From contig NZ_CP139559.1 in the NCBI RefSeq assembly GCF_034263275.1, positions 4,960,001 through 5,024,000 of the forward strand: 64,000 nucleotides of DNA, in the 5' to 3' direction. The DNA is from Mucilaginibacter sp. cycad4 (GTDB lineage: Bacteria > Bacteroidota > Bacteroidia > Sphingobacteriales > Sphingobacteriaceae). Made by a program: the position numbers and the translations under genes. The notes under the pieces are model-generated. The model did no database searches and was not told where the DNA came from. It worked only from the letters and a program-made list of their open reading frames with translations. Position 1 is the stretch's first letter. Each line of letters starts with the position of its first letter. Of this stretch, positions 13,812 to 16,614 are shown one piece after another.

Positions 13812-14951
13812 CTACTCACCTAATATGCGATATAGTTCAAGATTTAAATAATAGTTATTCCCCTCCATGCTCCTCTTTTCAAGAATACGCATTTTGGCTA
13901 ATTCATCTAGATATTTCCTCGCCGTATTTTCCGCATAAATCCCCGACGTTGTCAAGTGTTTCACCTTGGTATAAGGTTGGGTAAATAGTGCGTTTACCAA
14001 TGATTCGGGCCGTGCTATATTTGAGTCGGCGACCACTGCCTGTAAAATCGAATCCTTTGCATTAATAATATCATTGATTTTGTCGTAGGTAAGGTTCGCT
14101 GTCGCTTCAATGGCTTTCAATATATAAATTAGCCAAGTTTTCCAATCCCCTCTTTGAGTTACTCCGGCCAGCCCGCTGTAGTAATCATCTTTATGATCCA
14201 TGATATATTTACTTAAGAATAGGATAGGATAGTCCAATAAGCCCTTTTGTGTGAGGTAATGAATATTAAATATCCGGCCAGCCCGGCCATTCCCATCTGT
14301 GAAAGGGTGGATTGCCTCGAATTGCAAGTGTCCGATACCCATTTTCAGAAGCGGGTCTACCGGAAATTGTTTATCATCGTTTACAAATTCTATCAGGTTA
14401 GCTAGCTTCGCTTCGACAATACCCGGCCCCCTCGGAGGAGTATAAAATGCTTTACCGGCATTGGAGCCTGATCCTCCTTGTTTAATATATATTCCGGATG
14501 AGGGCAGGCGTATGCCATCGTTTAATTCTTTGATTTCTCTATATATGGATATAAAATATGCTTCGTCGAATGTATCGTTCCTTTTCAGATAATCGTATCC
14601 TTTCCAAAGTGCTTCCCGGTACTTCAGGACTTCTTTTGATGCCCCATGCAGCTGCTCTATACGCTGTTCGCTAAAAGCTTTATACAATTCATCATCAGTT
14701 GTAAAAATATTTTCAATAGCACTTGACGCTTTGGCCTCCTGCAAACTAATGGAATTAATGAGTAATCCCTGATTAGGAATTGCAATGCTTCGCCCTTGTA
14801 ACCTCCCCAACGCGGCCTTTGCATTGCCTAATTGCGCATATACTTCTACGGTTTCGTAAAGGGTTTTATCTATAGGTAATTCGGGTAAACCGTTCCAAGG
14901 GATATTACGATCAGGATTAACTTGGTAGGGCATGCTATTGTTTTTATACAT
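13812..14951 (-). CDS. Fic-family protein, class II, with C-terminal winged helix
   Basis: Fic enzymes transfer AMP or related groups to target proteins. The active-site motif HPFTDGNGRAGR lies at residues 215-226 (His215 catalytic). The inhibitory helix motif (S/T)xxxE(G/N) is present N-terminal to it as SSAIEN (Ser76 to Asn81, Glu80 blocking ATP), which makes this a class II, self-inhibited Fic. Residues about 300-379 look like a winged helix-turn-helix (YTKVKHLTTSGIYAENTARKYLDEL). An ATG six codons later is an alternative start. The upstream inverted-repeat array overlaps its start codon, pointing to self-regulation. Target protein unknown. Confidence 0.9.
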   Translation of the reverse strand: MYKNNSMPYQVNPDRNIPWNGLPELPIDKTLYETVEVYAQLGNAKAALGRLQGRSIAIPNQGLLINSISLQEAKASSAIENIFTTDDELYKAFSEQRIEQLHGASKEVLKYREALWKGYDYLKRNDTFDEAYFISIYREIKELNDGIRLPSSGIYIKQGGSGSNAGKAFYTPPRGPGIVEAKLANLIEFVNDDKQFPVDPLLKMGIGHLQFEAIHPFTDGNGRAGRIFNIHYLTQKGLLDYPILFLSKYIMDHKDDYYSGLAGVTQRGDWKTWLIYILKAIEATANLTYDKINDIINAKDSILQAVVADSNIARPESLVNALFTQPYTKVKHLTTSGIYAENTARKYLDELAKMRILEKRSMEGNNYYLNLELYRILGE

Positions 14952-15121
14952 TAAAAATCAATAATTTTAATGTTAGAGTGGTTTTATGACATCAAATATA
15001 CATATAATCAATAGGGCTAACATTAAAGTATTTAAATTTTAATGTTAGTCTACATTATGCCCTTTAAACAGGTACGCCTATCTATGCCTAACATCATTTT
15101 TTTTCTATTTTAATGTTAGGC
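14948..15121. promoter_or_regulatory. Array of three spaced inverted repeats (TTTTAATGTTAG) upstream of fic
   Basis: TTTTAATGTTAG occurs three times in one orientation at 14965, 15037 and 15108, 71-72 bases apart. Each copy has an inverted partner upstream: ACATTAAAA at 14948, CTAACATTAAA at 15017 and GCCTAACAT at 15086. The first pair covers the fic start codon (14949-14951 on the minus strand). The regular spacing is close to seven helical turns. This looks like an operator array, perhaps for the winged helix of Fic itself; that link is inference. Confidence 0.6.
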
Positions 15122-15458: not shown

Positions 15459-16543
15459 TTATTCATTTCCAGTTACACGACGAAAAACGGCATCCCGGCG
15501 TTTCTTCCTGCGTAACAATATGCTAATGCCCCAATCAGCGCCTGCAGATGTAAAAAATATAAGACTGATCAACAACGAATTGCCGAGTCCCTTAACAAAA
15601 AGACGCTCCCCTATCAATAATAAACTTATTACCGAAAGAAATAAAGTGGTCTGACCGTGGCTTAAGCCAAATTTTAATAACCAGCGATGAATATGGTTCC
15701 GGTCTGCTTTAAAAGGAGATTTTCCTTTCGACAGCCTTAATAAAAAACCCTTAACGTATCAAACACAGGTCCAGCCAGGATCGCGATAACCATAGAGGCA
15801 ATCCATTACTTGGCACCGTGCTTAACGAAATAAATTTCAGTGCCATTACCGCGGAAATCAAACCGATCATCAGGGCTCCGGTATCTCCCATGAAAATCTT
15901 GGCAGGTGCCAGGTTAAAACACAAAAAGCCAAGTATTGCACCCGACATAGTCAGACCAATTGCAGCAAGTTCGTATTGCCGGAGGTATATAAACAAAAAT
16001 GCGAAAGTACAATTCACAATAATACCTGTTGTGGCAACTAAGCCGTCTATACCATCAATCAGATTAAAGGAATTGACAATCAACATAATCAGCAAAATTG
16101 ATAATAAGGCACTTGGGATATAAGGCAAATTATAAATACCGAAGATACCGTACATACTGGTAACGCGGATATCGGCAGGCAAAACGACGCCCCCTGCGGC
16201 AAAAGCCTGAATCATAAATTTTGTGCTCGAATTTACTCCGTAAAGATCATCTTTTAATCCCATGGCAAACAAAATAATACATGCTGCCAACATATAATTA
16301 ACCAGCAGTGATTTATCAATTATTCCAACTATAAGCAATGTGATATTGAAGCTGACAAAAATCGCCACGCCGCCAAGACGTGGTATCCCATGATCATGCT
16401 CCTTCCGGAAATGCCCGACATCGTCGCACAAATGCCAGGCCCGCGCTACGTGCAAAACAGATGGAATACACATCCGGGTGACCAAGGTTGATAAACCACA
16501 ACGAGTAAATTGTAAAAAAAATGATACGGTCGTAAAAATTCAA
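15459..16543 (-). pseudogene. WecA/MraY-like polyprenyl-phosphate phosphoglycosyl transferase, three frameshifts
   Basis: An intact member would move a sugar-1-phosphate to undecaprenyl phosphate and start glycan synthesis at the membrane. The central frame (down from 16485) keeps RKEHDHGIPRLGG, MGLKDDLYG, NSFNLIDGIDGL and AKIFMGDTGA, with many membrane helices. It breaks three times. Near 16483 one extra base separates MNFYDRIIFFTIYSLWFINL from the rest. Near 15796-15800 one base is missing, and SMVIAILAGPVFDTLRV continues in another frame. At the A-run 15742-15747 one more base is missing, after which LLRLSKGKSPFKADRNHIHRWLL continues to a stop at 15459. The start is a TTG at 16543. Three independent breaks make sequencing error unlikely. 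Confidence 0.85.
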
Positions 16544-16614
16544 GCATAAACCGTATTTGATTAGCGTAAAAACTATTGCATCTTAATTATCAACGTAAAA
16601 TCGACGTCAGGTTT

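Follow-up and report, generated by a model that had tools for sequence, protein, structure and literature searches.

A helically phased half-site lattice upstream of SoFic genes as the probable operator of an autorepressing Fic protein

Introduction

Upstream of a fic gene in Mucilaginibacter sp. cycad4, within the 64,000 nucleotides of DNA analysed here (the window), a 12-nucleotide word recurs at almost equal steps, each time with an inverted partner. The locus raises the question of whether these repeats are an operator, which protein reads them and what their occupancy would do to the gene. We examined the gene and its product, the array in the window and the corresponding regions of related Fic genes.

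Results

The fic gene and its product

On its domains, motifs and modelled fold, the fic product is a SoFic, a class II Fic AMP-transferase of a known anti-phage family. It contains the Pfam domains Fic_N, Fic and SoFic-like_C (PF13784, PF02661, PF21248), and residues 25-377 match the full-length SoFic profile of PADLOC (PDLC03963, E 4.9e-97). The features of the gene are the following:

13812..14933, minus strand: fic (SoFic), 373 aa from the ATG at 14931-14933; an alternative ATG at 14949-14951 gives 379 aa
14709..14726, minus strand: class II inhibitory motif SSAIEN in the N-terminal helix (motif search)
14274..14309, minus strand: FIC catalytic motif HPFTDGNGRAGR (motif search)
13833..14003, minus strand: C-terminal winged helix (SoFic-like_C), the proposed operator reader (PF21248; AF2 model)
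13893..13931, minus strand: recognition helix ENTARKYLDELAK, window residues 341-353 (helix 335-347 of the 373-aa AF2 model)
13926-13928, minus strand: codon of Asn342, which covaries with operator sequence

SSAIEN agrees with the N-terminal inhibitory motif of class II Fic proteins, [ST]xxxE[GN], and HPFTDGNGRAGR with the pattern of an intact active site, HxFx[DE]GNGRxxR; motif searches found the inhibitory motif in 95 of 101 homologues and the catalytic motif in 100. The C-terminal domain scores 46.2 bits against PF21248 (cut-off 27) and appears as a winged helix, with three helices and a two-strand wing, in an AF2 model built from a 30-sequence alignment of proviral loci (pLDDT 90). An AF2 run on a two-sequence alignment (pLDDT 32) was discarded. 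Family and domain order are those of the SoFic proteins of S. oneidensis (SO_4266) and E. coli (EcSofic, PDB 9vjc), which share with the window protein the FIC motif, the inhibitory motif and the C-terminal winged helix; Foldseek aligned our model with S. oneidensis SoFic (3zcn) at a TM-score of 0.91.

The position of the start codon decides how the repeats lie relative to the gene. Close homologues begin with MPYxINPDR, which corresponds to the ATG at 14931-14933, and in a relative 88% identical (L033) the equivalent of this ATG is the only one, a stop codon standing in frame at -21. We rejected the alternative ATG within site 1 (14949-14951) as a start on the basis of the homologue starts and its absence from L033, and the real start is probably 14931-14933. 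Site 1 would therefore lie upstream of the start codon and not over it, so that the earlier note, which had the first repeat covering the start codon, was probably wrong on this point.

Upstream of fic, a WecA/MraY-like glycosyltransferase gene (15480-16600, minus strand) changes frame near 15757 and probably a second time near 16430; these breaks may reflect either a pseudogene or assembly indels.

The repeat array in the window

The 12-mer TTTTAATGTTAG occurs exactly on the plus strand at 14965-14976, 15037-15048 and 15108-15119, in steps of 72 and 71; it reads CTAACATTAAAA on the fic strand, and each copy has an inverted partner about 20 bp further. With exact copies and partners located, the three inverted repeats at 71-72-base steps that had been described upstream of fic are confirmed. 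The elements of the array are:

15108-15119, minus strand: half-site CTAACATTAAAA, 12/12
15088-15099, minus strand: inverted partner half-site AAATGATGTTAG, 8/12; outer arms GCCTAACAT/ATGTTAGGC perfect
15037-15048, minus strand: half-site CTAACATTAAAA, 12/12
15017-15028, minus strand: inverted partner half-site CTTTAATGTTAG, 11/12
14993-15000, minus strand: Bacteroidota-type -7 promoter element TATATTTG, a match to the consensus TAnnTTTG
14986-14997, minus strand: weak half-site ATTTGATGTCAT at a lattice position, 8/12; overlaps the -7 element
14965-14976, minus strand: half-site CTAACATTAAAA, 12/12
14945-14956, minus strand: inverted partner half-site TTTTAATGTATA, 9/12 to consensus; just 5' of the likely start codon

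These three dyads are the only strong ones in the window, the half-sites between them being weak, and they represent every second element of a denser 30/40-bp lattice that is clearest in relatives. The array region has the highest copy number of any single 12-mer among 278 window stretches of 230 bp, and no second occurrence of the dyad pattern was found across the 7.1 Mb genome. Chance, or AT-rich low complexity, has in its favour that the region is AT-rich and that 8 of 1500 dinucleotide shuffles reach the window copy number on this single measure. By itself the window array is suggestive, and it is the comparative evidence that settles the matter.

A lattice shared by SoFic relatives

Homologues were sampled by genus, class, family and phylum searches. 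A single-protein search of genome contigs returned one close relative (L031) and a single-protein query against viral contigs gave zero matches; an alignment query against viral contigs gave 36 loci, which were used for AF2 modelling. Most of 101 SoFic homologues have tandem inverted repeats upstream, in letters that vary by clade; absence of the array from close fic homologues, the outcome that the earlier note had named as counting against its proposal, was checked in this way, and an array was found upstream of most. Strong inverted repeats average 1.04 per 250 bp upstream, compared with 0.09 inside the gene and 0.07 for shuffled sequence; the mean downstream of the fic homologues is 0.51 per 250 bp, and these repeats are perhaps terminators.

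In a half-site search made ab initio and blind to spacing, the distances between same-orientation half-sites peak sharply at 30, 40-41 and 70-71 bp. Across 121 SoFic loci thinned to <85% identity, 349 of 407 same-orientation pairs (86%) are spaced by 29-31, 39-41 or 69-72 bp, compared with 16% in the in-gene control and 14-22% across three shuffles. The means of the three clusters (30.0, 40.4 and 70.4 bp) are near multiples of 10.05 bp, from which we infer that the half-sites face the same side of the helix. In a small sample from other Fic families, 7 of 20 pairs are at lattice spacings, and the half-site method found no clear array in distant homologues such as L089, L091, L092 and L119. EM half-site models of groups D1, D2, E, F, G and A_out were uninformative and are left out of the results.

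Chance is refuted by these comparative data, as the lattice of the 121 loci stands out from both shuffled and in-gene controls and recurs in relatives of very different composition; the array is indeed too regular for chance, as had been claimed, and we regard that explanation as practically negligible. The repeats could also be structural or mobile elements, namely RNA hairpins, integron attC sites or REP-like repeats, given that CTAAC...GTTAG is similar to attC outer boxes and that hairpins are possible for some dyads. However, an Rfam search gave no match, the dyad is single-copy in the genome, which together with the comparative data makes attC unlikely, and same-orientation single half-sites on a 10-bp lattice do not form paired hairpins. 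Moreover, the letters change with the protein while the spacing stays constant, and an origin of this kind is very improbable.

The lattice is common to Bacteroidota, Fusobacteriota and Pseudomonadota, and its half-site letters differ among clades. Plasmid SoFic genes have upstream spacings of 40, 69 and 29 in Ilyobacter, 41 in Asticcacaulis, 40 and 30 in Sinorhizobium and 40 in Psychrobacter, and 11 proviral loci taken with Cedecea and Mesorhizobium have 26 of 32 pairs at lattice spacings. On an Azotobacter chroococcum plasmid (L198), the SoFic gene has a gene for a class I SAM-dependent DNA methyltransferase on one side and one for a restriction subunit S on the other; another Fic-family gene follows, and the setting is that of a type I restriction-modification island.

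The E. coli SoFic locus (L244) has lattice spacings of 70, 141, 71, 40 and 30 upstream, with half-sites ATGTCGAT at -236, -166, -95, -55 and -25 and inverted half-sites at -255, -185, -114 and -44. Its protein is identical in 351 of 352 residues to the aligned stretch of the solved EcSofic chain 9vjc, and the EcSofic gene carries the putative operator lattice upstream as the window fic does. The E. coli SoFic gene was found in 278 of 5426 E. coli genomes (word-11 search), always on the chromosome; a megablast of the Cedecea fic against E. coli gave zero matches. The recognition helix of S. oneidensis SO_4266 (AKRQTA) agrees with that of EcSofic, from which ATGTCGAT-like half-sites spaced by 30/40/70 bp are predicted upstream of the S. 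oneidensis gene.

Which protein reads the array

Residue 342, the second of the modelled recognition helix, changes together with the half-site. In clade A (63 loci), Asn occurs with C[AC]TTAA (52/52), Lys with CGGTAA (7/7) and Val with CACTAA (4/4), and in clade B the sole Thr-to-Val change (L047) coincides with TGTACA in place of TGTCCA or TGTTCA; the independent changes behind this covariation are few, with two in clade A and one in clade B. Contacts of Asn with adenine and of Lys with guanine are established protein-DNA chemistry and would match the altered base. When about 360 alignment columns were scanned blindly against operator similarity, with a correction for identity and only partly for phylogeny, position 342 ranked highest in clade A; among the other loci, 340 came first, 342 third and 341 seventh. 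In 26 divergent pairs of paralogues from the same genome, mean operator similarity is 0.093, against a background of 0.082 (sd 0.029), and this near-background value indicates that operators follow the protein and not the host.

These results bear on the possibility that the repeats are the operator of some other regulator controlling fic, either encoded by a neighbour or a global transcription factor. On this view the winged helix might do no more than regulate the enzyme from within the same molecule, as shown for the EcSofic C-terminal domain (CTD; PMC12249575). Against this, operators follow the Fic protein clade and differ among same-genome paralogues, the best-covarying protein column falls in the Fic recognition helix, and the annotated SoFic loci inspected have no neighbour gene in common, so that we consider another regulator distinctly improbable. 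Judging from sequence covariation, the SoFic winged helix almost certainly binds the array; that it could be the ligand had been suggested earlier, and the covariation and the differing operators of same-genome paralogues now support this strongly. Two genomes (G073 and G464) were seen to hold four SoFic paralogues each, and in G073 copies from different protein clades carry different operators.

The promoter and proposed autorepression

In 31 of 63 close homologues (e.g. L035, L037, L127) the TAnnTTTG -7 element begins 11-12 bp upstream of the ATG, and a nearly leaderless fic mRNA is predicted from this position; in the window and in L033 it is instead at about -67. The window element is overlapped by a half-site, so that filling of the array should block the promoter. 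The array is very probably fic's own operator, at which Fic dimers would bind cooperatively and repress their own promoter. In the mechanism that we propose, dimers would read the half-sites (CTAACATTAAAA in the window) through their C-terminal winged helices; the half-sites alternate in orientation at intervals of about 20 bp, those of like orientation recur at about 30, 40 and 70 bp, and these spacings, near multiples of 10 bp, would line up the protein on one face of the DNA. Cooperative occupancy, which would fit the helically phased lattice, would then cover the leader and the promoter, with the -7 element inside the array, and physical binding there would repress fic and keep a toxic AMP-transferase scarce until repression is lost.

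Fic autorepression is known for one protein, CccR of Yersinia pseudotuberculosis, a class II Fic that acts through a C-terminal HTH on inverted repeats and requires dimerisation, as proposed here; footprint, EMSA and lacZ assays showed that this Fic-HTH protein represses its own promoter via a palindrome (PMC9755527). The window fic likewise has inverted repeats in its own promoter. However, CccR has one palindrome (AGATAATCAT-N26-ATGATAATCT), whose half-sites, 36 bp apart centre to centre, do not fit the SoFic lattice spacings, whereas the window has several dyads with half-sites about 20 bp apart and a period of about 70 bp. CccR is a T6SS-secreted effector and does not serve here as a member of the family. 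Type II/IV toxin-antitoxin systems (e.g. AbiEi) work in a similar way, through cooperative negative autoregulation at operators made of multiple inverted repeats, but there a separate antitoxin binds DNA, while SoFic combines toxin and DNA-binding domain in one protein.

For SoFic itself, DNA binding had not yet been shown as of 2023 (PMC10628234). Wild-type EcSofic is toxic, and its cloning failed under a single lac operator and worked only under three (PMC12249575), as expected of a toxin removed from its own control. CbFic2 of Coxiella burnetii, a class II Fic with a DNA-binding C-terminal winged helix and thus an architecture like that of the window Fic, differs from SoFic in its reported target, host histone H3; it bound random DNA with nanomolar affinity, which counts against a sequence-specific SoFic operator (PMC10628234).

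Fic might instead bind the array to activate or tether itself, the DNA mainly setting an inactive or deAMPylating state. DNA binding promotes CbFic2 dimerisation and deAMPylation and shifts the balance between AMPylation and deAMPylation (PMC10628234), and EcSofic needs its CTD, which touches the AMPylase domain, for toxicity (PMC12249575). That half-sites overlap or abut the promoter fits repression, however, and CccR represses; a role confined mainly to activation or tethering is unlikely, although the two roles are not exclusive. Alongside autorepression, DNA binding may also influence AMP-transfer activity, in view of the CTD contacts of EcSofic and of the behaviour of CbFic2, and might thus provide the link between this activity and fic expression that the earlier note had proposed. 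A more speculative and rather unlikely idea is that the lattice is also a safety catch for the enzyme: SoFic on its own promoter would be held inactive and the promoter would serve as an infection sensor, loss or remodelling of this DNA during infection (e.g. when T5 or another phage breaks down the host's DNA) both freeing the toxin and lifting repression.

Novelty and significance

The array had been put forward as a candidate undescribed control module. This holds in part: an autorepressing Fic was already published in CccR (PMC9755527), but a phased multi-site lattice, a co-changing residue, or any operator or DNA binding of SoFic was not found in the open-access papers searched, subscription papers and preprints lying outside this set. 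A 2026 copy of the PDB contains SoFic structures (9tch, 9tc4, 9tcl, 9tb0) to which no paper was matched, and given this and the scope of the literature search, unpublished or unseen work could already cover the lattice.

SoFic is a widespread anti-phage toxin, and the comparison gives its C-terminal domain a specific candidate ligand, half-sites on a conserved lattice. It also singles out a residue as a candidate for recognition and predicts the operators of many SoFic copies, including the purified and tested E. coli protein. The lattice and its co-changing residue make SoFic self-control directly testable. The loci also provide proteins and operators matched by nature, in which the half-sites change in sequence and the geometry is fixed; they are suited to asking how paralogous regulators that move horizontally escape cross-talk.

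Repeats of unusual form or position at single loci

In L057, at about -111 to -52 from the fic start, one operator dyad forms part of a longer palindrome whose arms measure 26 bp (GTCATCGGTAGTGGCTAACCTTAAAA), far more than at the other loci. The first 320 bases of L010, 3' of its fic, contain operator-like dyads (CTATACAT...ATGTATAG) that resemble the operators of its clade elsewhere and are perhaps the promoter of a further gene. Finally, upstream of a Fic gene of another family (L021), six copies of the 8-mer TCGGCTCA follow one another in steps of 44-45 bp, possibly marking another Fic with its own array.
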